Shown here: one piece after another, positions 2,443 through 16,386 of the stretch | How the letters are laid out: every line of letters begins with the position of its first letter | Position numbering within the stretch: position 1 is the stretch's first letter | NCBI GenBank assembly: GCA_030043395.1 | Contig: JASHXW010000231.1 | Span: 1-16,932 of the forward strand | Reading direction: 5' to 3' | Source of the DNA: Streptosporangiaceae bacterium | GTDB taxonomy: Bacteria; Actinomycetota; Actinomycetes; Streptosporangiales; Streptosporangiaceae | Length of the DNA: 16,932 nt | Program-made: the position numbers and the translations under genes | The notes under the pieces: generated by a model | Databases searched by the model: none | Told to the model about the DNA's origin: nothing | Seen by the model: only the letters and a program-made list of their open reading frames with translations

Positions 2443-2457
2443 TAGCATCGGGCCGTG
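2443..2457 (+). promoter_or_regulatory. Possible leaderless promoter (-10 box TAGCAT) for the nuclease gene
   Basis: TAGCAT at 2443-2448 fits the actinobacterial TANNNT -10 consensus and lies six bases before the GTG start at 2455. Transcription would therefore begin at or next to the start codon. No Shine-Dalgarno-like sequence is present in the 25-base gap. No clear -35 box is seen. Confidence 0.4.
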
Positions 2458-4314
2458 GCTACCCGCTATGACGTGTCGGCCGTGCCCCCCCAGGGCGGCT
2501 ACGTCGCTAAGCAATGCCCGGTCCGGGCGCAGTGGGACGCGATCATGCCGGGCGAGCCGGTGCCAGTGCCGCCCGAGCTCGAGCGCCGCTTCGAGCTCGG
2601 CCGCGAGTTCGAGGCCGAGGTCTTCGCCCGGCTGCGCAGGCTGCATCCCGGCGCCGCGATCCTCGCCGACCCGGACCGCGAGAAGCGCGCCGAGCGAGAG
2701 GCGGCAACGCTCGGCGCGATGACTGCCTGCGTGCCGCTGATCATCGGCGGGCGCCTGCCGGCCGACGAGGCCGGCAGGCGGGTCGGGGAGCCCGACCTGC
2801 TGGTCGCCGCGAGCCAGGACAGCCCGGGCTACCGCCCAGTGGACATCAAGCACCACCGGACGCTGCAGTCCGGCGGACCTGGCCTGCGCGCGCTGTGCTC
2901 GCAGCTGGACTTCCCGTCGATGGAGTCAGCCGCCGCTGACCCGGCGGCATCGGCGCGCAAGCGCCGCCAGGACATGCTGCAGCTCGCGCACTACCAGCGG
3001 ATGCTGGAAGCAGCCGGGCTGGCGGCAACTGACGGCCGCTACGGCGGCATCGTCGGAGTCGACCAGGTGGTCACCTGGTATGACCTGGACGCGCCGATCT
3101 GGCAGACCCCCTCCGCCTCAGGCCGGCCGGCGCTCCGCTCGACGATGGCCGTCTACGACTTCGAGTTCGACTTCCGGCTCGACATCATCGCCGTCGCGAT
3201 GCGGCACCTGGCCGACCCGGCTGTGCGGCCGCTCGTCGTGCCGGTGCGAATCTCCGAGTGCCCGGAATGCCCCTGGCGCGACCTCTGCGGTCCGATCTTG
3301 CGGGCGGGCTCGGGAGACGTGAGCCTGCTCCCGCGGGTCGGCTGGCACAAGTGGCGCGTGCACCGCGACCACGACGTTCACGACCGTGCCTCGCTCGCGT
3401 CGCTGGACCACCGCACGGCCGAGCTGGTGGGGGCCGGGGTTGACCTGCGGCCTGTCCTGGCCGCGCTCGGGGAGTTGCCTGGCGACACGTCGCTGGCCGA
3501 GCTCGCGCCGGGCCAGGCACAGGCGGCACGCCTGGCCGCCGCCGGCCTGACCGTGCTCGGCGACGCGCGCGGCCTGGATCGCCGCACCGCCTCGTACTGC
3601 GACGAGCCCATGACGGACCTCGCGCTGCAGATCGACCTGGCCCGGGCGGCGCTCGGCGGCTCCCCGGCCTACCGCCGGCGTGGCGTCACCGCGGTGCAAG
3701 TGCCGCGCGGCGATGTCGAGGTGGACATCGACATGGAGAACACGCAAGACGGCGTCTACCTTTGGGGTGCGCTCGTCACCAGCCGTGCCGGTGCCGAAGT
3801 AGCCGGGTACTACCCGTTCTGCACCTGGGAGCCGATGAGCGCCGAGGTCGAGACGCAGGTATTCGCGCGATTCTGGCAGTGGTTGTCCGGCCTGCGAGAC
3901 CGCACCGCAGCCGCCGGCCTGCGGTTGCGTGCCTACTGCTACAACGCCGCCGCAGAGAACTCCCAGCTCAGCCGGCTTGGCGCCGCCGCCGGGGTGCCGG
4001 ACGAGGTCGGCGCATTCATCGCATCCGCGCAGTGGATCGACCTGCTGCGCGTCTTTGACAGCCAGCTGATCACCGGGACGTCCATCGGGCTGAAGACCGT
4101 CGCCGCGCTGGCCGGCTTCGCCTGGAGCGTGGAGGACCCCGGCGGAGCCGAGTCGCTGCTGCGGTACGACCTGGCGGTCGGCGCAGAGCCGCACGCGGCG
4201 CGCGAGTGGCTCCTGGCTTACAACCGCGACGACACGCGCGCCACGCTGGCCCTGCGCGAGTGGCTCGACACCGCGGGTCCTGGCATCCCGGCGATCGAGG
4301 ACGCCGCCTGGTGA
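2455..4314 (+). CDS. TM0106-family RecB/Cas4-like Fe-S nuclease with C-terminal RNase H-like domain
   Basis: The product has 619 residues. The N-terminal half resembles the RecB/Cas4 PD-(D/E)XK nuclease group: E112-P-D114, then D130-I-K132 form the metal-binding and catalytic motif. C21 together with C269, C272 and C278 (CPECPWRDLC) matches the one-plus-three cysteine pattern that holds a 4Fe-4S cluster in Cas4/AddB-like nucleases. The C-terminal half looks like a DEDD exonuclease of the YprB/RNase_H_2 type: DIDME at 424-428 (Exo I) and YNRDDTRA from 589 (Exo III). The middle Exo II motif is unclear (AAENSQLSRL). Proteins of this plan are annotated 'TM0106 family RecB-like putative nuclease' and have no settled role; DNA repair or end processing is inferred. 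GTG 2455 is the first start giving the family N-terminus and fits a leaderless promoter. It is a lone gene with no CRISPR array near it. Confidence 0.8.
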   Translation: MATRYDVSAVPPQGGYVAKQCPVRAQWDAIMPGEPVPVPPELERRFELGREFEAEVFARLRRLHPGAAILADPDREKRAEREAATLGAMTACVPLIIGGRLPADEAGRRVGEPDLLVAASQDSPGYRPVDIKHHRTLQSGGPGLRALCSQLDFPSMESAAADPAASARKRRQDMLQLAHYQRMLEAAGLAATDGRYGGIVGVDQVVTWYDLDAPIWQTPSASGRPALRSTMAVYDFEFDFRLDIIAVAMRHLADPAVRPLVVPVRISECPECPWRDLCGPILRAGSGDVSLLPRVGWHKWRVHRDHDVHDRASLASLDHRTAELVGAGVDLRPVLAALGELPGDTSLAELAPGQAQAARLAAAGLTVLGDARGLDRRTASYCDEPMTDLALQIDLARAALGGSPAYRRRGVTAVQVPRGDVEVDIDMENTQDGVYLWGALVTSRAGAEVAGYYPFCTWEPMSAEVETQVFARFWQWLSGLRDRTAAAGLRLRAYCYNAAAENSQLSRLGAAAGVPDEVGAFIASAQWIDLLRVFDSQLITGTSIGLKTVAALAGFAWSVEDPGGAESLLRYDLAVGAEPHAAREWLLAYNRDDTRATLALREWLDTAGPGIPAIEDAAW

Positions 4315-4363: not shown

Positions 4364-6409
4364 GTGACCCAAACCGTGGGCGAGCAGGAGCGGACGGGCG
4401 GGCGGCAACTGAGCCAGCGTCAGATCCTGATCGTCATCGGCGGGCTCATGCTCGGGATGCTGCTGGCGGCGCTCGACCAGACGATCGTCGCCACGGCCCT
4501 GCCGACGATCGCCGGCGATCTGCACAGCCTGTCCAGGCTGTCCTGGGTCGTCACCGCCTACCTGCTGGCATCGACGGTATCCACCCCGCTCTGGGGCAAG
4601 CTCGGCGACCTCTACGGGCGCAAGCTGTTCTTCCAGGCCGCGATCGTGATCTTCCTGATCGGCTCCGCGCTGTCCGGCCTATCGCAGACGATGACGGAGC
4701 TGATCATCTTCCGCGCGCTGCAGGGCATCGGCGGCGGCGGGCTGATGGTCGGCGCCCAGACCATCGTCGGTGACGTGGTCCCGCCGCGGGAGCGCGGCCG
4801 CTACCAGGGGCTCTTCGGCGCCGTGTTCGGCGTCGCCAGCGTAGTCGGCCCGCTGATAGGCGGGTTCTTCGTCGACACGCTTACCTGGCGCTGGGTGTTC
4901 TACGTGAACATCCCGATCGGCATCATCGCGCTGATCGTGGTGGCGGTGGTCCTGCCCAGGCGAGTTGGCCGGGGGCAGCGCTCCATCGACTACCTCGGCG
5001 CAATCATGATCGGCGGCGCGGCCACGAGCCTGGTCCTGCTGACCTCACTGGGCGGGGTGACCTTTCCCTGGCTGTCCGGGCCGATCATCACCCTTGGCGT
5101 GCTCGGCCTCGCATTCATCGTCGGCTTCGTGCTGATGGAGCGCCGGGCCGCCGAGCCGGTACTTCCGCTGCACTTGTTCCGGTTGCGGGTGTTCTCGGCG
5201 GCGGGAGCGATCGGGTTCGTGGTCGGGTTCGCCATGTTCGGCGCGCTGACCTACTTGCCCCAGTACTTGCAGGTCGTCAAGGGCGTCAGCCCGACGTCAT
5301 CGGGCTTGCGGCTGCTGCCTTTGATGGCCGGGCTGCTGGCCACGTCCATCCTGACCGGGCAACTCGTCTCGCGCTGGGGGCGCTACAAGATCTTCCCCGT
5401 CATCGGCACGGCCATCATGACCGCGGGCCTGTTCCTGCTCTCCCGTCTTGGCGTGACGTCTGGCACGCTGCAGTCCTCGCTCGCCATGTTCGTCCTCGGC
5501 GTCGGAATCGGCGCCACCATGCAGGTGCTCGTGATCGCGGTGCAGAACGCGGTCGAGTACGCCGACCTTGGCGCCGGGACATCGGGCGCCACCTTCTTCC
5601 GCTCGATCGGCGGATCCTTCGGAACCGCGGTCTTCGGGGCGATCTTCGACAACGTCCTGCCCGGCAACATCTCCGCGGCGCTGCACGGGCTCGCGCTGCC
5701 TCCAGGGGTCGGCGTGACCAGCGGCGCCAGCCCGGCGGCCCTGGCCCGGCTGCCCGCCCCGATCCACGCCGCGCTCGTCGCCGGGTACGCCCAGTCCATC
5801 CGCACGGTCTTCCTCGCTGCCGTCCCGGTCGGCGCGCTGGCGTTCGCCCTGACGTGGACCCTGAAGGAGCAGCCGCTGCGCGCGACGACCCGCGCCGTCG
5901 ATCCGGCCGACCGGCTCGCACCGACCTCGCGGCCGACGATCAGGACCTCCGACGAGGAAATGCGCCGGGCTATCAGCTCCCTGCTCAGTCGCGAGCGGCG
6001 GCGCGATATCTACGGCGGCATCGTCGCCAGTGCCGGGCTGAACCTGTCGCCGCGGGCTGGCTGGCTGCTGCTGCGCGTGGGCGAGCACAATGGCGAGTCC
6101 GCTGCCGGGCTGGCCAGCCACCTGTCGATCAGCATCTCGGAGCTGGACCGGCGGATGGCCGAGCTGACGGAGGCCGGCTACGTCAAGCCCGGGCCGCCCG
6201 ATCCGATCCGGGCGCAAGAGCTGACCCCCGCCGGCCAGTCGGCGTACGCCAAGATGTTCGCCGCCAGCCAGGACCGGATCGCGCAGCTATGCTCCGGCTG
6301 GAATCCGGAACTGCATCCCAGGCTGCTCGAGCTGCTGTCCGAGATCACCCACGAGCTCGCCGCGAGTCGTGAGCGGCCTGGGCGCGACCTCGAGGCGGCC
6401 AGCGCCTGA
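4364..6409 (+). CDS. DHA2-family (14-helix) MFS multidrug exporter fused to a C-terminal MarR-like winged helix
   Basis: The product has 681 residues. Residues up to about 510 form a drug:H+ antiporter of the EmrB/QacA group: LDQTIVATALPTI in helix 1, GKLGDLYGRK as MFS motif A, and GVASVVGPLIGGFF as the exporter motif C. The usual length for this part is about 480-520 residues. Residues about 527-672 are soluble and resemble a MarR regulator: a helix with EEMRRAISSLL, then LSPRAGWLLLRVGEHNG, a helix-turn-helix with GLASHLSISISELDRRMAEL, and a wing ending RAQELTPAGQSAYAKM. The transporter therefore carries its own DNA-binding-like or sensing domain on the cytosolic side. The GTG start at 4364 has no clear ribosome binding site; the next GTG, at 4376, is also possible. 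The FAD monooxygenase follows 20 bases later or overlaps it. Export substrate is unknown. Confidence 0.88.
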   Translation: MTQTVGEQERTGGRQLSQRQILIVIGGLMLGMLLAALDQTIVATALPTIAGDLHSLSRLSWVVTAYLLASTVSTPLWGKLGDLYGRKLFFQAAIVIFLIGSALSGLSQTMTELIIFRALQGIGGGGLMVGAQTIVGDVVPPRERGRYQGLFGAVFGVASVVGPLIGGFFVDTLTWRWVFYVNIPIGIIALIVVAVVLPRRVGRGQRSIDYLGAIMIGGAATSLVLLTSLGGVTFPWLSGPIITLGVLGLAFIVGFVLMERRAAEPVLPLHLFRLRVFSAAGAIGFVVGFAMFGALTYLPQYLQVVKGVSPTSSGLRLLPLMAGLLATSILTGQLVSRWGRYKIFPVIGTAIMTAGLFLLSRLGVTSGTLQSSLAMFVLGVGIGATMQVLVIAVQNAVEYADLGAGTSGATFFRSIGGSFGTAVFGAIFDNVLPGNISAALHGLALPPGVGVTSGASPAALARLPAPIHAALVAGYAQSIRTVFLAAVPVGALAFALTWTLKEQPLRATTRAVDPADRLAPTSRPTIRTSDEEMRRAISSLLSRERRRDIYGGIVASAGLNLSPRAGWLLLRVGEHNGESAAGLASHLSISISELDRRMAELTEAGYVKPGPPDPIRAQELTPAGQSAYAKMFAASQDRIAQLCSGWNPELHPRLLELLSEITHELAASRERPGRDLEAASA

Positions 6410-10825: not shown

Positions 10826-10862
10826 AAGCCGACACGGCATGAGCCAACCCGCCAATCTGGTC

Positions 10863-10874: not shown

Positions 10875-12443
10875 ATGCCTGAGGCGACCGCCCTGGGGAT
10901 CGATCTCGGGACCACCCTGTCGGTCGTGGCGCAGGTCAACAGCGCAGGGACGCCGGTTGTCCTGGCGAACTCGGAGGGCTCGCTGACGACGCCCTCGGTC
11001 GTGTTCTTCGACGGCCAAACCGTCGTCGTGGGCGAACAGGCCAGGGACGCGCTGGGTACCGACCCCGAGTCGGTCGTCCAGCTCGTGAAGCGGTACATGG
11101 GCTCGGACTGGACGTTCGACTATCAGGGCATCGGCTACCGGCCAGAACATGTCTCCGCCCTCATCTTGCGCAAGCTGGCCGCGGACGCGCGGCTCGCCAG
11201 CGGCAGCAAGGCCAGTGCCAGCCAGGCCGCGGTCACGGTGCCCGCGTACTTCAACGACACGATGCGGGCAGCCACTCGCCGGTCGGCGGAACTCGCCGGC
11301 CTTGACGTGATCGGGCTGCTTTCCGAGCCGACCGCCGCGGCGCTGGCGTTCGGGTATGACAAGCGGCCAGCGGGCGCGACCGGCGTCGTCCTTGACCTCG
11401 GCGGCGGCACCTTCGACGTCACCGTCATGGACTACGACGGCCACGACCTGGCCGTCCGGGCCACCGGCGGCGACTTCTACCTCGGCGGCTCGAACTTCGA
11501 CATGGTTCTCTTTGACTACTTCGTCGAGCAATTCCGCGCCGAGTACGGCCTGGACATCAACGACCCCGCGGTGCTCTCGCTCGAGGAGTGCACTCAGGTT
11601 TCCCAGGACTGGCTGCGCGGCGCCACGCAAGCCAAGCATCAGCTCAGCGAGCGTGAGCTGACCACGGTCCCGCTCCACGCCGCAGGGCTGATGCTGCTTG
11701 TGAAGGTCAGCAGGGAGACCTTCCTGCGGCGCAGCAAGCTGCTTCTTGACGAGGTCTCTGAGAAGATGCGCGACGTCCTGGCTGCCGCTGGAGCCGCGCC
11801 GTCTGATGTCGCCTTCGTCCTGGCCGTCGGCGGCTCTACTAGGATCCCGGCCGTCAAGGAGCGAATCACCGACATTTTCGGTACGGCTCCAGATACCTCT
11901 GTGCCGCCCGATGAGGCGGTCGCACTCGGCGCTGCCTTGTTCGGCGCGCAACAGCAGCTTTCCAACGGCACCGAGCTGAAGATGAAGGCGTCGGCCCGCG
12001 ACTACCTGGAGAAGCTGACCATCACTGACGTCGCTGCCCACACTCTAGGCGTCACCGTCCTCGATGCCGCGGCAGGTTCGTCCGGCCGGCAGGTCGTGCA
12101 GCCGCTGCTGCCGCGCAACACGTCCCTACCCGTCGAGGCCAAGCGGACGCTGCTCACTGCCCGGCCAGACGAGCGAAGGATCGTGGTGCCCGTCCTGGAG
12201 GGCGAGGAGACTGACCCGCGGCTATGCCGCCGGATCGGCGAGGTGGTCATCGACGGGCTGCCGCCGAATCGACCTGCTCACCAGCAGGTTGTCGTGACGA
12301 TGCGGCTGGACAAGGACGGCATACTGCAAGTGTCGGCAGCCGATAGGGAGACGGGATTGGCAGCGACAACGACCATCGTGCACGCGAACCACCAGCCCGA
12401 CCCTGAGGCCGACCGGGCAGCGCAGACGCTGACGGTGCGTTAG
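10875..12443 (+). CDS. Hsp70-family ATPase, short form without the C-terminal lid
   Basis: The 522-residue protein has a complete nucleotide-binding domain: GIDLGTTLSVV (phosphate 1, residues 8-18), VKR with K72 at the place of the catalytic lysine, VTVPAYFND (120-128), LSEPTAAALAFGY (149-161), DLGGGTFDV (phosphate 2, 174-182) and AVGGSTRIPAVK (adenosine). The linker and beta-sandwich substrate domain are present but divergent: the DVLLLDV linker is replaced by KLTITDV. The protein ends about 20 residues after the beta domain. The alpha-helical lid (about 100 residues in DnaK) and the EEVD- or DVVD-like tail are absent. It should bind ATP and peptides, with faster or weaker substrate trapping (inference). 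It is not housekeeping dnaK: no grpE, dnaJ or hspR adjoins. The next gene, a J-domain-like zinc-ribbon protein, begins 10 bases later and is the likely partner. Confidence 0.9.
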   Translation: MPEATALGIDLGTTLSVVAQVNSAGTPVVLANSEGSLTTPSVVFFDGQTVVVGEQARDALGTDPESVVQLVKRYMGSDWTFDYQGIGYRPEHVSALILRKLAADARLASGSKASASQAAVTVPAYFNDTMRAATRRSAELAGLDVIGLLSEPTAAALAFGYDKRPAGATGVVLDLGGGTFDVTVMDYDGHDLAVRATGGDFYLGGSNFDMVLFDYFVEQFRAEYGLDINDPAVLSLEECTQVSQDWLRGATQAKHQLSERELTTVPLHAAGLMLLVKVSRETFLRRSKLLLDEVSEKMRDVLAAAGAAPSDVAFVLAVGGSTRIPAVKERITDIFGTAPDTSVPPDEAVALGAALFGAQQQLSNGTELKMKASARDYLEKLTITDVAAHTLGVTVLDAAAGSSGRQVVQPLLPRNTSLPVEAKRTLLTARPDERRIVVPVLEGEETDPRLCRRIGEVVIDGLPPNRPAHQQVVVTMRLDKDGILQVSAADRETGLAATTTIVHANHQPDPEADRAAQTLTVR

Positions 12444-12453
12444 GGGGTCCACG

Positions 12454-13335
12454 ATGCAACCGCAGCCCGGTCCCGTGCAGCCACGGCCCGACTGGTACGC
12501 GCTGCTTGGCGTAGAGCCGACGGCGAGCACCGAGGAACTGACTGCGGCAGTCGAGCGGATGAGCCGCCAGGCCACCGCGCTCTCCGTGACCGCGCCAGAG
12601 CGGTCCCGGCAGCTGCGTGACCAGATCCGCGCGATCAAGCAGGATCTGCTGTCATCGGACGCGCAACGGCAGCGTTACGACGCGGAGCGCGGCGGGCCTG
12701 CGGCTCATGGGCGGGGACCGTTCGGCGCGCCATTCCAGGGCCAGCAGCACGGGGGTCAGAACTATGGCGTCCCGCAGTACGGCGGCCAACCGCAGGGCGG
12801 CCAGCAGTATGGAGGCCAGCCATACCAGGGCCCGCCTGCGCAGCCGCCACCGCAGCAGCCGCCTGCCTACCAGCCTCCCGGTTACGGCCCGGCCGCAGGG
12901 ACGCCATCCTGGCAGCCGGCGCAGTCTGCCGGGTCGCAGCAGGCCCAGCCGTTCCAAGGCCTCATGTCTCGGGTCGCCCGCTTTCTGCAAACCGGCTGGA
13001 CGTGCAAAACCTGCGGGTTCGGCGCATTGCCGAACGACAAGTTCTGCCACAAGTGCGGCAGCCCGATCGAGCCACCGGCAACCGCCTCTGGGGGCCAGAC
13101 CGGACAGGCAAGGTTCGGCCCTCCGCAGCAATGGACCGCTGGTTCCCCCGGGCAGCCAGGTGCGCCACCAAGCCAGCCAGGTGCGCCACCAAGCCAGCCA
13201 GCAGGGCCGGTGGCTCAGCCACGAGGGCCGGCTGCGGAGCAACAAGGTTCCGGACAGCTCGGATTTTGCGGAAAGTGCGGCGGAGCAATTGCCGCAGGTA
13301 ATACGTTCTGTACCCAGTGCGGCGCCCGCACCTGA
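12454..13335 (+). CDS. Degenerate J-domain protein with Gln/Gly/Pro linker and two C4 zinc ribbons
   Basis: The product has 293 residues. Residues about 12-80 follow a J domain (WYALLGVEPTASTEELTAAV at the front, SSDAQRQRYDAERGG at the end), but the loop that normally carries HPD reads RQATALSVTAPE, so it should not stimulate Hsp70 ATPase in the classical way. Residues about 85-168 are low-complexity Gln/Gly/Pro/Tyr repeats (GGQQYGGQPY). A zinc ribbon follows at C184/C187...C198/C201 (CKTCGFG, KFCHKCGSP), then a Pro/Gln/Gly linker with two PGAPPSQ units. A second zinc ribbon at C272/C275...C286/C289 ends the protein. There are no membrane helices. ATG 12454 follows GGGGG. The 10-base gap to the Hsp70 gene argues for co-expression and direct partnership; scaffold or client-recruiting roles are inferred. 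Confidence 0.78.
   Translation: MQPQPGPVQPRPDWYALLGVEPTASTEELTAAVERMSRQATALSVTAPERSRQLRDQIRAIKQDLLSSDAQRQRYDAERGGPAAHGRGPFGAPFQGQQHGGQNYGVPQYGGQPQGGQQYGGQPYQGPPAQPPPQQPPAYQPPGYGPAAGTPSWQPAQSAGSQQAQPFQGLMSRVARFLQTGWTCKTCGFGALPNDKFCHKCGSPIEPPATASGGQTGQARFGPPQQWTAGSPGQPGAPPSQPGAPPSQPAGPVAQPRGPAAEQQGSGQLGFCGKCGGAIAAGNTFCTQCGART
13156..13197 (+). repeat. Two exact 21-base tandem repeats in the zinc-ribbon linker
   Basis: The unit CCAGGTGCGCCACCAAGCCAG occurs twice in a row (13156-13176, 13177-13197) with no mismatch and encodes PGAPPSQ twice, followed by a related PAGPVAQP. Perfect identity suggests recent slippage duplication; copy number may differ between strains. Confidence 0.85.
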
Positions 13336-13378
13336 CGGATCCTGGACTCTGCCGCGACCACCCGCTCAGTGAGCCCCC

Positions 13379-13408
13379 TTGCAGTGGGCGCCGGAATCGC
13401 CCTAACAT
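13379..13408 (+). promoter_or_regulatory. Possible sigma-70-type promoter before the beta-propeller gene
   Basis: TTGCAG at 13379-13384 and TAACAT at 13403-13408 are separated by 18 bases and fit the -35/-10 pattern of the principal actinobacterial sigma factor. The start point would be near 13415, giving a leader of about 33 bases to GTG 13448. It lies in the only sizeable gap (112 bases) of the Hsp70 gene group and would let the downstream membrane genes be expressed separately. Confidence 0.5.
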
Positions 13409-13447
13409 GCGCCATTGCAAGCCTGTAGATGAGACTGGGATTCCAAC

Positions 13448-14962
13448 GTGCCAAATTGTAGAAATGGGCATTCCGTCCGAATGGGAGCAGCCTTCTGCGG
13501 AGTCTGCGGGGACGACTTGCGGCCGCGCTGCTATCAAGGCCACGCGAATCAGCCTGGTGCGCTGTCGTGCCAAATGTGTGGCAGTCCGCTGACAACGGAT
13601 CCTGGACCTGACGAAGCTACTCCGCTGCTGCTTTCCCCGCAGGAGCCCGTCAATGCGCCGGTCGGCCCGGCTGATGCCGCGGGCTCAGCGGGCGTCGCAG
13701 ATCCCGTCGGACCGGCGGACTGGTCGACCTCACCGACGTCGGCCGAGCCCGCTCTGAGCACCGACACCCAGTCGACTGCGGCATTCGCCACCGACACCCG
13801 CGTAGCGGCGGCTGCTGCGCCGCCGAGCACCGCGCCGCCTGAGGGCGCGCCGCCGCGCCGCAAGCGTCACCGCGGCAGGTGGGTCGCGGCTGCTATCGCT
13901 GTCGTCGTCGTCCTCGCTGGCGGCGGCACGGCCTTCGCGCTGCTCGGCGGGCACCATCCGTCGGCCGCGGGGCACAAGGCCCCGCCCACCCGCTCGGCAA
14001 GCCCGACGGCCAGCCCCACAAGCTCGGCACCGTCTCCGAGCACGACCTCGACGCCTGCCTCCTCACCAGCCCCGACGAGCACGGCCACTGTCGGCGCTTC
14101 CGGTTGGACATATCCAGTGCCCATCGATCAGCCTGCGCTGACCAATGACGACGCGTCCCTGTCGGGGATCTCCTGTGTGGCAGCAGGGAAGTGCTTCGCG
14201 GTCGACTCGCAGGGAAACGTCCTGCAGGAGAACGCCAAGACCGCATGGGCCATTGTCGACACCGACTCGGCTGGCGGGCTCACCTCTATTTCCTGCCCTT
14301 CGGCCAGGTTCTGCGCTGCCGCTGACAACTCAGGGAACGTGGTGATCCTCAGCAAGGGCACCTGGAGCGATCCGATTGCAATCGCCTCCCAGAACAGCCT
14401 CAACAGCATCTCCTGTCCGTCAGCGACGTTCTGCATGGCAGTGGACGGCAACGGCGACGCGTTCACCTATACGGGGACGCAGACGCACTGGACCCAGGCG
14501 ACCGTGACCAGTTACGCCGACTTGGTCTCGATCTCGTGCCCCAGCAGCACGTTCTGCGCCGCCGTCGACAACTCAGGCAACGCCTACACCTACACGGCCG
14601 GCTCATGGAGCGCGGGCTACCAGGCTGACTCCAGCAACGGATTTACCCAGGTGTCGTGCTCGAGCTCGGCCTTCTGCCTGGCCGTGGATGGCAATGGCGG
14701 TTTCGCCGTCTACACCAAGCGCCAGTGGACTTACGGTTCGCTCGGCACAACGGCAACCAATGTGTCCTGCCCGTCCGGTGGGTACTGCGTCGCGGTCGAC
14801 AACGCCGGCGGATTCGTGGTTTATTCGCACGGTAACTGGTCGAAAGTGATCAAGATCGACGGCAACAACATGTTCAACGCCGTAAGCTGTCCCGCTGTCG
14901 GCACCTGCGTAGCCGGCGACGCGAACAATAACGTTCTGACCTACTCGTCATCGAGATCCTGA
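13448..14962 (+). CDS. Membrane-anchored double-zinc-ribbon protein with an external seven-repeat beta-propeller
   Basis: The product has 504 residues. The N-terminus has two copies of a C-x3-H-x8-C-x2-C zinc ribbon: C4/H8/C17/C20 and C28/H32/C41/C44. A Pro/Ala/Thr-rich linker leads to basic residues RRKRHRGR and one membrane helix at about 145-168 (WVAAAIAVVVVLAGGGTAF). By the positive-inside rule the zinc ribbons are cytosolic. After a Ser/Thr/Pro stalk (about 175-215) come seven repeats of about 40 residues, each with C-x5-C and a following A-V-D-N/G; first Cys residues are 243, 283, 323, 364, 404, 441 and 481. Seven units suit a seven-bladed propeller with one disulfide per blade, fitting an extracytoplasmic location. 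The start is fixed by C4: the next Met (12) would lose it. Ligand and function are unknown; a transmembrane sensor or scaffold tied to the Hsp70 group is inferred. Confidence 0.8.
   Translation: MPNCRNGHSVRMGAAFCGVCGDDLRPRCYQGHANQPGALSCQMCGSPLTTDPGPDEATPLLLSPQEPVNAPVGPADAAGSAGVADPVGPADWSTSPTSAEPALSTDTQSTAAFATDTRVAAAAAPPSTAPPEGAPPRRKRHRGRWVAAAIAVVVVLAGGGTAFALLGGHHPSAAGHKAPPTRSASPTASPTSSAPSPSTTSTPASSPAPTSTATVGASGWTYPVPIDQPALTNDDASLSGISCVAAGKCFAVDSQGNVLQENAKTAWAIVDTDSAGGLTSISCPSARFCAAADNSGNVVILSKGTWSDPIAIASQNSLNSISCPSATFCMAVDGNGDAFTYTGTQTHWTQATVTSYADLVSISCPSSTFCAAVDNSGNAYTYTAGSWSAGYQADSSNGFTQVSCSSSAFCLAVDGNGGFAVYTKRQWTYGSLGTTATNVSCPSGGYCVAVDNAGGFVVYSHGNWSKVIKIDGNNMFNAVSCPAVGTCVAGDANNNVLTYSSSRS
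14145..14950 (+). repeat. Seven diverged repeats of about 120 bases (propeller blades)
   Basis: Each unit encodes a core such as SISCPSATFC followed by AVD and a Gly/Asn-rich turn. First cysteine codons are at 14174, 14294, 14414, 14537, 14657, 14768 and 14888, giving steps of 40, 40, 41, 40, 37 and 40 codons. Repeats differ at base level, so the array is old; repeats 2-4 are the most alike. Confidence 0.85.
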
Positions 14963-14987
14963 TCTGCCTTGCCTGGAGGCCTGCGGC

Positions 14988-15713
14988 ATGTGCCCGAACT
15001 GTCAAGCCCCGACAAGACCCGGCGAGGACTTCTGCACGAGCTGTGGCACTGCACTGCGCCGCGACGACTCGGCCGCACAGCAGCCGCAGGGCCAGTACCC
15101 GTCCGCCGGGCAGCCTTTCGGCCAGCAGCCGCCCACGCGGGTCATCGGCCAGCCCGGGCCTGGCGGCCAGCAACCACCGCCACCGTACCCACCGCCCCAG
15201 CAGCAGTGGCCCCAGCAGCAGTGGCCCCAGCAGCCGCCGTCCGGCGGACCGCCGGCTCCCGGCTGGCAAGGCCAGGTCCAGCGCACGTCGACGCCGTTCC
15301 GGTTTGACCTCAAGCGCCTTGGCCAGGCGGACCGCATCATCGGCGGCGCCACGATCGTGATGCTCATCTCGCTGCTCCTGCCCTGGTACGGCTACCTCGG
15401 AGCCACCGAAGACGGGCTTAAGGCACATGGCTACCTGGTGATATCCCTGGTAATCGCCCTGGCGCTGATCGTCTACCTGGTCCTGCGTGCAGGCTGGGAC
15501 GCGCTTCCGTTCCGGTTGCCGATCGCGCACGCCCCGCTGCTCCTGATCGGGACAGGCGTGCAGTTCTTGTTCGTTCTCATCGCCTTCCTGTTCAAGCCGT
15601 TCTCGTTCCTGAGCTGGGAGATCGGCGCGTACCTGGCTCTGGTCGCTGCCGCCGTGGCGTGCGGGGTCATCGCCGTGCCGGCGATCAGGTCGCTCCAGGC
15701 GAGGCAGCCGTGA
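14988..15713 (+). CDS. Zinc-ribbon, Gln/Pro-linker, four-helix membrane protein
   Basis: The 241-residue protein begins with a C4 zinc ribbon right at the N-terminus (C2, C5, C16, C19: MCPNCQAP and DFCTSCGTAL). A Gln/Pro/Gly-rich linker (about residues 26-105, with PQQQW units) follows. Four hydrophobic helices lie at about 115-136, 147-170, 177-203 and 209-233; helix 1 ends LLPWYGYL and a short loop after it probably faces outside. The fold is not one I can name. ATG 14988 has GGAGG at 14975-14979, eight bases upstream, and the gene follows the propeller gene by 25 bases, so they are likely one transcript. The shared plan of ribbon, flexible linker and membrane part suggests that the cytosolic ribbons of neighbouring products bind each other or a common partner. 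Confidence 0.78.
   Translation: MCPNCQAPTRPGEDFCTSCGTALRRDDSAAQQPQGQYPSAGQPFGQQPPTRVIGQPGPGGQQPPPPYPPPQQQWPQQQWPQQPPSGGPPAPGWQGQVQRTSTPFRFDLKRLGQADRIIGGATIVMLISLLLPWYGYLGATEDGLKAHGYLVISLVIALALIVYLVLRAGWDALPFRLPIAHAPLLLIGTGVQFLFVLIAFLFKPFSFLSWEIGAYLALVAAAVACGVIAVPAIRSLQARQP
15195..15224 (+). repeat. Exact 15-base tandem repeat in the Gln/Pro linker
   Basis: CCCCAGCAGCAGTGG occurs twice in a row (15195-15209, 15210-15224), with a third, diverging copy beginning CCCCAGCAGCC. It encodes PQQQW units and probably arose by slippage. Confidence 0.85.
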
Positions 15714-15723: not shown

Positions 15724-15729
15724 TTGCCC

Positions 15730-16386
15730 ATGATGGGCGAGATATCGCCGCTAGGGTCGGACTCAGGGTCGGGCAATCTCCGGGCGTCGCACGAGGACCG
15801 GGACCGGGTTATCGAGGCTCTGCGGGTCGCGGCGGGCGACGGGCGGCTGACGTCTGAGGAGCTCGACCAGCGCGTCGAGGTTGCGTTCTCCGCGAAGACC
15901 TACGGAGAGCTTGCCGCGCTGACGGCAGACCTGCCGGCCGGGAGTCAGTCGCTCGCCCCGGCGACCTCGGTCGCGCCTAAGGATGTCGGGCGCATCGACG
16001 CCAGGAGCGGCAACGCCATCCGGAACGGCCGCTGGGTCGTGCCACGCCGGCTCGAGGTCCGGGTGCGGAGCGGGAACGTCAAGCTGGACTTCACCGACGC
16101 GGTGATCTCGCACGCGGCGCTGGAGATCGACGCCGAGGTGCGCAGCGGCAACGTGGTCATCGTGACCCGGCCGGGCATTGCCGTGGACACCGACGAGGTC
16201 CAGGTACGCAGCGGCAACGTCCGGGTACGGCAACCGTGGGATAGCGACATCCCGGTCTCGTTGCTGATCACCGTGTCCGGCAAGGTCGGCAGCGGCAACC
16301 TGGTCGCGCGCCCGCCCCGCCGCTCTTTCTGGGCGTGGCTGCTGCGCAAGCCAAAGCCGTACGCCGCTGCGAGGCGCAGCCGGTAG
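15730..16386 (+). CDS. DUF1707 plus DUF4097-like beta-repeat protein
   Basis: The product has 218 residues. Residues about 18-70 match DUF1707 (RASHEDRDRVIEALRVAAGDGRL, then LTSEELDQRVEVAFSAKTYGEL), a short helical domain common at the N-terminus of actinobacterial cell-envelope proteins. Residues about 90-190 carry a recurring RSGN motif about every 21 residues (DARSGNAI, VRSGNVKL, VRSGNVVI, VRSGNVRV, VGSGNLVA), which matches the repetitive beta-sheet domain DUF4097. The C-terminus is basic (RRSFWAWLLRKPKP...) and may touch the membrane. No signal peptide is seen. Function is unknown; DUF1707 is often found beside envelope stress genes. ATG 15730 is preferred over TTG 15724 because the -10 box lies exactly six bases before it. 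Confidence 0.85.
   Translation: MMGEISPLGSDSGSGNLRASHEDRDRVIEALRVAAGDGRLTSEELDQRVEVAFSAKTYGELAALTADLPAGSQSLAPATSVAPKDVGRIDARSGNAIRNGRWVVPRRLEVRVRSGNVKLDFTDAVISHAALEIDAEVRSGNVVIVTRPGIAVDTDEVQVRSGNVRVRQPWDSDIPVSLLITVSGKVGSGNLVARPPRRSFWAWLLRKPKPYAAARRSR

Follow-up and report, generated by a model that had tools for sequence, protein, structure and literature searches.

We analysed a stretch of 16,932 nucleotides (nt) of high-GC DNA from a Streptosporangiaceae bacterium (contig JASHXW010000231.1), called the window below, in which the gene of an Hsp70 without a helical lid precedes those of a J-like protein, a propeller protein and a protein with four transmembrane (TM) helices. Positions are numbered within the whole stretch, and L, P and G designate related loci, database proteins and genomes. 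An earlier note had described the locus as a lidless Hsp70 followed by three consecutive zinc-ribbon genes, whose products carry a degenerate J domain, a membrane-anchored propeller and a four-helix membrane domain. Pfam matches, structure models and sequence features bear out this description: the missing lid is seen in PDB alignments and family gaps, the J domain in profile, AlphaFold2 (AF2) and Foldseek comparisons, the anchored propeller in its TM helix, SCx5C repeats and model, and the last protein in its four hydrophobic helices. The features are as follows.

10875..12443, plus strand: lidless Hsp70 (nucleotide-binding domain, NBD, and beta part of the substrate-binding domain, SBD-beta), 522 amino acids (aa), Pfam Hsp70 E-value 2e-105
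12405..12440, plus strand: conserved C-terminal tail replacing the lid, with fixed positions counted from the C-terminus
12454..13335, plus strand: J-like protein with two zinc ribbons, 293 aa (Pfam, family profile, AF2 model)
12487..12693, plus strand: HPD-less J-like domain, residues 12-80, the HPD position reading T-A-L
13003..13065, plus strand: zinc ribbon 1 of the J-like protein, residues 184-204 (Pfam, CxxC)
13267..13329, plus strand: zinc ribbon 2 of the J-like protein, residues 272-292 (Pfam, CxxC)
13448..14962, plus strand: protein with double ribbon, TM helix and seven-bladed propeller, 504 aa, GTG start
13457..13582, plus strand: its two N-terminal ribbons (C4 H8 C17 C20; C28 H32 C41 C44)
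13889..13945, plus strand: its single TM helix, residues 148-166, with basic residues on the N-terminal side
14099..14947, plus strand: its predicted seven-bladed beta-propeller, residues 218-500, whose seven repeats carry one SCx5C pair each
14988..15713, plus strand: zinc ribbon and four-TM protein, 241 aa, with one ribbon and four hydrophobic helices

The start of the Hsp70 at 10875 is favoured because a GGAG sequence precedes it and the database form P0162 is 522 aa long; an in-frame ATG at 10839, which gives a 534-aa numbering, is a less likely start. Alignments with PDB chains end where the SBD-beta ends: in the 534-aa numbering, query residue 525 corresponds to residue 482 of the DnaK chain 2v7y_A, and query residue 516 to residue 504 of the DnaK chain 4b9q_A. 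Thirteen residues of the window protein align with E. coli positions 510-600. In a family of 125 sequences (120 database members and five loci), 123 have a gap at the three tested lid positions, and the tails of the two exceptions, P0208 and P0227, look out of frame. Omitting these two, the tail that stands in place of the lid has A at position -11 from the C-terminus in 121 of 123 sequences, D or E at -10 in 119 and V or I at -2 in 122, and is perhaps a docking peptide. The ATPase residues K70, P143, R151, E171, T199 and D201 are invariant in the family. The linker reads mostly L-(T/S)-(V/I)-(T/N)-D rather than VLLLD, its Asp being present in 125 of 125, and the score against the NCBIfam dnaK equivalog was 334.9 bits for a cut-off of 822.55. 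The ATPase domain with the catalytic residues of a DnaK-type protein is present; with no lid, an altered linker and a score below the equivalog cut-off, identity as an ordinary DnaK was rejected. Two database proteins, P0248 (815 aa) and P0250 (854 aa, for which a domain scan was run), join a PknB-like Ser/Thr kinase to the lidless Hsp70 in one chain.

The Pfam DnaJ match of the J-like protein (E-value 0.007) is under the cut-off. Its family profile matched the DnaJ 2 chain 9dyv_A with an E-value of 1.8e-5, and the AF2 model of the domain had a predicted local distance difference test (pLDDT) of 89-98 in ten-residue blocks over residues 11-80. When this model was used in Foldseek, J domains topped the list with a probability of 1.0, the best E-value being only 0.016. 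The model has a J fold, in which helix II reaches residue 46 and helix III begins at residue 48, and no HPD. This motif is missing in 43 of 43 J-like proteins, a set from which three of the 41 database matches were dropped (P0020, P0025 and P0040, the last two of which begin past the site); P0020 likewise has no HPD and reads RQANSL. The pattern RQAxAL or RQAxTL with T/S, P and R (second place Q or H) matches 41 of the 43 proteins, and the remaining two read GRQANALSVTM-P-Q/P-R. In the ungapped profile alignment, HPD falls on x-A-L, with Leu over D35. Assignment to the class A-C J-domain proteins was rejected (HPD in 0 of 43); the domain agrees with the definition of type IV or pseudo J proteins, a recognisable J domain in which HPD is non-conservatively replaced. 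No client-binding beta-sandwich was seen in the J-like protein, and in L023 and L004 the J-like open reading frames (ORFs) are without a CxxC ribbon. The former (L023:8489-9700) is a single protein made of a J-like domain, a TM helix and a C-terminal part, residues 234-308 of which weakly match a sporangiospore cell-wall hydrolase family (E-value 8.5e-6, under the cut-off).

In the DnaK-DnaJ complex, D35 of the HPD motif bonds R167 and Q378, H33 meets L391, P34 meets P419, and charged J residues meet E217 and D477 (PMC8215388). In the lidless family, position 167 is G in 116 sequences, A in 8 and R in 1 (non-Arg in 124 of 125), Q378 is replaced in all 125 (F in 109, Y in 16), position 170, N in DnaK, is S in 125 of 125, and neither E at 217 nor D at 477 occurs in any, these counts not being independent because the 120 database members are at least 63 percent identical to the window Hsp70. 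The five loci, at 54-66 percent identity to it, agree, position 167 being Ala in L022; P419 is retained in 124 of the 125, with Gly in L004. R167, N170, E217 and Q378 are intact in E. coli HscA and HscC and in seven DnaKs from seven of the metagenome-assembled genomes (MAGs). Judged from the sequences, both the Hsp70 and the J-like protein are changed at their usual contact. A suppressor pair of this kind, R167A/D35N, is known from the laboratory (PMC13012618), and by analogy the family looks like a natural counterpart of such paired replacements.

Conserved gene order, which the earlier note had proposed as its check, was found in other genomes, all or part of it being repeated in L001, L003, L021, L029 and L084. 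Among loci whose sequence covers the side in question (L022 and L029 being separate contigs from a single MAG), the J-like gene directly follows the Hsp70 gene in four of six (window, L001, L021, L022) and lies within 1.6 kb of it in all six, the J-like ORF being about 1.6 kb downstream on the same strand in L004 and about 1.3 kb downstream on the other strand in L023. Next to the ribbon-type J-like gene comes the propeller gene in six of six loci (window, L001, L003, L021, L029, L084), and the four-TM gene follows the propeller gene in five of six. The contig end truncates the four-TM gene of L084; the L001 contig stops after the propeller gene, and a four-TM gene lies beyond an exporter gene (see below) on the opposite strand. 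At least 15 of 40 J-like matches lie on contigs identical in nucleotide count to a contig of the 118 non-window Hsp70 matches, for a chance expectation with a mean of 0.3 and a maximum of 3 in 2000 trials. The distances among J-like proteins and among Hsp70s are correlated over 18 pairs (r 0.73, not reached in any of 5000 permutations).

A profile of 40 J-like sequences, run against 1193 six-frame ORFs of eight loci, detected four ORFs (L029, L022, L004, L023), and a search of genome contigs with the J-like alignment gave seven loci; L005, L006 and L007 matched this alignment mainly over the ribbon and served as background only. With the J-like profile A3, E-values of 1e-20 or better were obtained in G002, G108 and G058 among 200 genomes and in G001 and G326 among 198. 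The weaker matches (7.8e-9 or worse) fell mostly in frames of 300-500 aa, and one of them, in L085, carries HPD. The lidless Hsp70 is present in four of the five genomes with a strong match; because four of the six A3 rows come from those same genomes, only the absence elsewhere is independent evidence. The Hsp70 family is rare among the searched genomes and patchy: with the window Hsp70 as query, it was found in 2/200, 2/198, 1/9, 1/396, 2/345 and 1/151 genomes (E-value cut-off 1e-90 or 1e-100; centre genomes included; overlapping sets; 2-9 candidates per genome scored in the larger sets). Some database relatives bear the name Streptosporangiaceae or Trebonia. Host assignment of single loci is unsafe, because the GC content of L001 is 0.548, versus 0.650 around the DnaK gene in that MAG; misbinning was considered, and the module itself was found in several assemblies. 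Near the Hsp70 cluster of L004, in a MAG labelled Bacillota, a transposase-like ORF (L004:14433-16280, recognised by eye only) hints at mobility.

One relative of the window locus (L084:2108-3871) has no Hsp70, and its J-like domain has lost conserved residues. Its neighbours are those of the window (SGNH, GT4, J-like, propeller and four-TM genes), the window GT4 and SGNH genes having 66 and 59 percent identity, respectively, to their L084 relatives, and a different gene occupies the Hsp70 position. A whole-genome search of G058 gave no Hsp70 of the lidless family, the only match being DnaK-like (E-value 3e-81, 39 percent). The L084 J-like domain keeps 15 of 21 near-invariant columns; A32, E34, R38, L43 (now Glu), R55 and R59 are changed, of which R38, L43 and R59 are present in all 43 other J-like proteins. 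L023 has lost more columns overall than L084, yet keeps these three residues. Since E34/R38 and R55/R59 are each one helical turn apart, they likely mark a surface patch.

In the propeller protein, all ribbon ligands are invariant in four sequences, with Pfam ribbon matches under the cut-off, and the seven SCx5C repeats are found in the proteins of the window, L021 and L001. A model built from the four sequences had a pLDDT of about 70-95 across the blades, and its structural matches are designed propellers with seven blades (TM-score 0.81-0.82, relative to the target). An outward-facing propeller and inward-facing ribbons are suggested by the paired cysteines and by the basic residues that precede the TM helix. 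In G002, four of the 11 genome-wide Zn_Ribbon_1 matches fall in this cluster.

An exporter gene lies upstream of the Hsp70 gene in five of six loci (L001, L004, L021, L022, L023). Pfam recognised FHA, ABC ATPase and ABC-2 membrane domains in one chain in L001 and L022, with two FHA stretches each, and in L004, with one; the L021 and L023 genes were identified by tblastn only. The exporter gene directly adjoins the Hsp70 gene in four loci, with overlapping frames in L021 and L022, and an ORF stands between them in L004. In the four loci with a complete N-terminus, its product begins with two pairs of the CxxC type or similar, the Pfam ribbon being matched only under the cut-off, in L004 and L023. 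Two more ribbon proteins, one with two TM helices, are encoded beside the exporter gene at L022:337-2176 (G108). By description rather than by sequence, the exporter is like the FHA-ABC exporter Rv1747, whose gene shares an operon with that of a Ser/Thr kinase, PknF (PMC3908365), and whose FHA I domain is bound by a stress protein (PMC5549992). It differs from Rv1747 in its N-terminal CxxC pairs and in the Hsp70 gene that comes next, and no kinase gene was recognised beside the exporter in the relatives.

Taken as a whole, the cluster suggests a private, membrane-located chaperone switch of uncultured bacteria, and we give about an even chance to a dedicated Hsp70:J-like pair that works as a membrane-linked switch rather than as a folding machine. 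The J-like domain would still dock at the canonical J site, through hydrophobic contacts, so that ordinary DnaJ would be excluded and the pair insulated from the DnaK/DnaJ system. The lidless Hsp70 would bind and release exposed segments rapidly, probably disordered linkers or tails of the module partners. The J-like domain would be tied to the membrane through the ribbons in the window type and within one polypeptide in L023, the propeller protein would sense the cell envelope, and the most likely output would be the FHA-ABCG exporter encoded upstream in the five relatives. Phosphorylation may be a second input, given the PknB-like kinase fused to the same Hsp70. In its most specific form, which we put forward only tentatively, the pair would be orthogonal, a hydrophobic Leu-Gly-Phe contact replacing that of D35 with R167 and Q378, and would act as a non-folding ATP switch that gates the FHA-ABC exporter on an external signal received by the propeller.

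This bears on the interpretation of the earlier note, in which the ribbons may form a common docking layer that brings the Hsp70 to the membrane and links it to an external sensor. A conserved module and an Hsp70 beside a J-like partner are supported, as is the link to the membrane and to an outside domain, for example by the single L023 protein that joins a J-like domain to a TM helix. L084 speaks against the Hsp70 as core of the module, and a universal ribbon docking layer is weakened because the L004 and L023 J-like ORFs are without ribbons. The note had overlooked the DUF1707 gene 10 nt downstream, the exporter gene outside the window and the paired changes at the Hsp70-J contact.

Several observations weigh against a dedicated switch. 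The window Hsp70 has no exporter beside it, a divergent GT4 gene occupying the place, and P0172 keeps R167 though its contig partner P0028 has no HPD. The correlation of J-like and Hsp70 distances also follows from joint inheritance. L084 stands alone and comes from a draft MAG, and conserved columns are also lost in further divergent J-like domains (8 of 23 in L023, 5 of 21 in P0038); since L084 keeps the ribbon genes without an Hsp70, these may have a job of their own. The Hsp70 paralogue L014 is likewise without R167 and Q378, so that these sites alone are not diagnostic. Finally, an HPD/AAA change abolishes the stable complex in simulations with ordinary DnaK (PMC13012618), and an HPD-less domain may thus simply not bind.

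The last two points and the L084 gene set also speak for an independent loss, in which the Hsp70 would be J-independent, with a fixed or fast ATPase, and the J-like domain a mere structural adaptor among ribbon proteins, HPD and R167 having decayed separately because neither was needed. Pseudo-J-domain proteins of unclear relation to Hsp70 are indeed known (PMC13254874). We nevertheless regard this explanation as rather unlikely: the J fold and a specific motif are retained, R167 and Q378 have shifted together to a conserved new state, R38, L43, R55 and R59 are lost in the one locus without Hsp70, and some systems with HPD/AAA retain part of the ATPase activation (PMC13012618).

It is less probable still that the module is a redox chaperone system, whose ribbons would be thiol switches that hold unfolding proteins at the membrane under oxidation and pass them to the Hsp70. 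The precedent is Ruc (Rv0991c), a partner of the Hsp70 system made of a zinc ribbon and a disordered tail, which acquires chaperone activity when oxidised and assists folding by that system (PMC7448276). The window proteins similarly pair ribbons with linkers of low model confidence that are probably disordered. Unlike the module, Ruc is not known to have a J domain or membrane part; moreover, ribbons are missing from the L004 and L023 J-like ORFs, and a lidless Hsp70 is ill suited to client holding, to judge from the lid effects reported in PMC8215388.

A conflict or immunity signalling system of multicellular bacteria is very unlikely: actinobacterial GTPase systems with HSP70, zinc ribbons and TM parts are on record (PMC7159879), the distribution is patchy, the L022 exporter matches PADLOC MADS ATPase models (mad3 E-value 1.6e-27, mad8 5.9e-13) and the P0250 kinase the MAD6 kinase model (2.5e-38, under the cut-off), but these matches probably reflect generic ATPase and kinase similarity, no TRAFAC GTPase, GAP1 or tubulin gene was found among the 12 window proteins scanned by Pfam, and PADLOC at 0.01 gave nothing for the Hsp70, J-like, four-TM and DUF1707 proteins and only weak matches for the propeller protein and the L023 J-like protein (1.9e-4 and 1.7e-4). 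One variant of those systems is without a substrate domain (PMC7159879), whereas the module Hsp70 keeps its SBD-beta. With these PADLOC results, a defence system was not favoured.

The remaining features of the window lie on either side of the module.

15724..16386, plus strand: DUF1707 protein, 10 nt after the four-TM gene, with a weak LiaG-family match (E-value 8e-5, below the cut-off)

The intergenic gaps on the plus strand from the Hsp70 gene, via the J-like, propeller and four-TM genes, to the DUF1707 gene are 10, 112, 25 and 10 nt, and the DUF1707 gene is probably co-transcribed with the module. The DUF1707 protein had no tblastn match in the related loci searched. A promoter and terminator scan gave no terminator, its sole promoter-like site being on the minus strand. 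Upstream, the window encodes, at 100-1319, a LigB-type ring-opening dioxygenase and, after it, a small protein which may be its LigA-type partner; a 619-aa protein (2455-4314) with an RNase_H_2 match at its C-terminal part, which we take to be RecB-like nuclease in appearance; and a major facilitator superfamily transporter (4364-6409), matched by Pfam to about residue 446, whose long C-terminal extension has no Pfam match and looks like a MarR-type domain.

The component folds are known and their combination is undescribed; among open-access publications, no title or abstract opening describing this gene set was found. With DnaK/DnaJ the pair shares an NBD and SBD-beta, the catalytic residues, the J fold and adjacent genes, and it differs in the missing lid, the changed VLLL of the linker, the replacement of R167, N170, Q378 and E217, and the absence of HPD. 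HscC with DjlB and DjlC is similarly a divergent, short bacterial Hsp70 (556 aa in E. coli) with J proteins of its own; HscC, however, retains R167, N170, E217 and Q378, and its J proteins carry HPE (PMC13254874). Pam16 and other type IV or pseudo J proteins are comparable in having a J fold, a replaced HPD and a membrane motor setting. Pam16 has a functional J protein, Pam18, at its side (PMC13254874), whereas no second J protein was seen in the cluster, and in the module the contact site of the Hsp70 is changed as well.

HPD is described as essential to J-domain action, although one designed J domain functions without it; a 2026 review states that the role of HPD-less J proteins has not been elucidated and calls it enigmatic whether they are accidents or were selected (PMC13254874). 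Here the loss of HPD is conserved and is matched by changes at the facing residues of the co-encoded Hsp70, in a manner reminiscent of the R167A/D35N pair. The question of HPD-less J proteins thereby becomes testable with two small soluble proteins, and the pair could supply an orthogonal chaperone pair for engineering.

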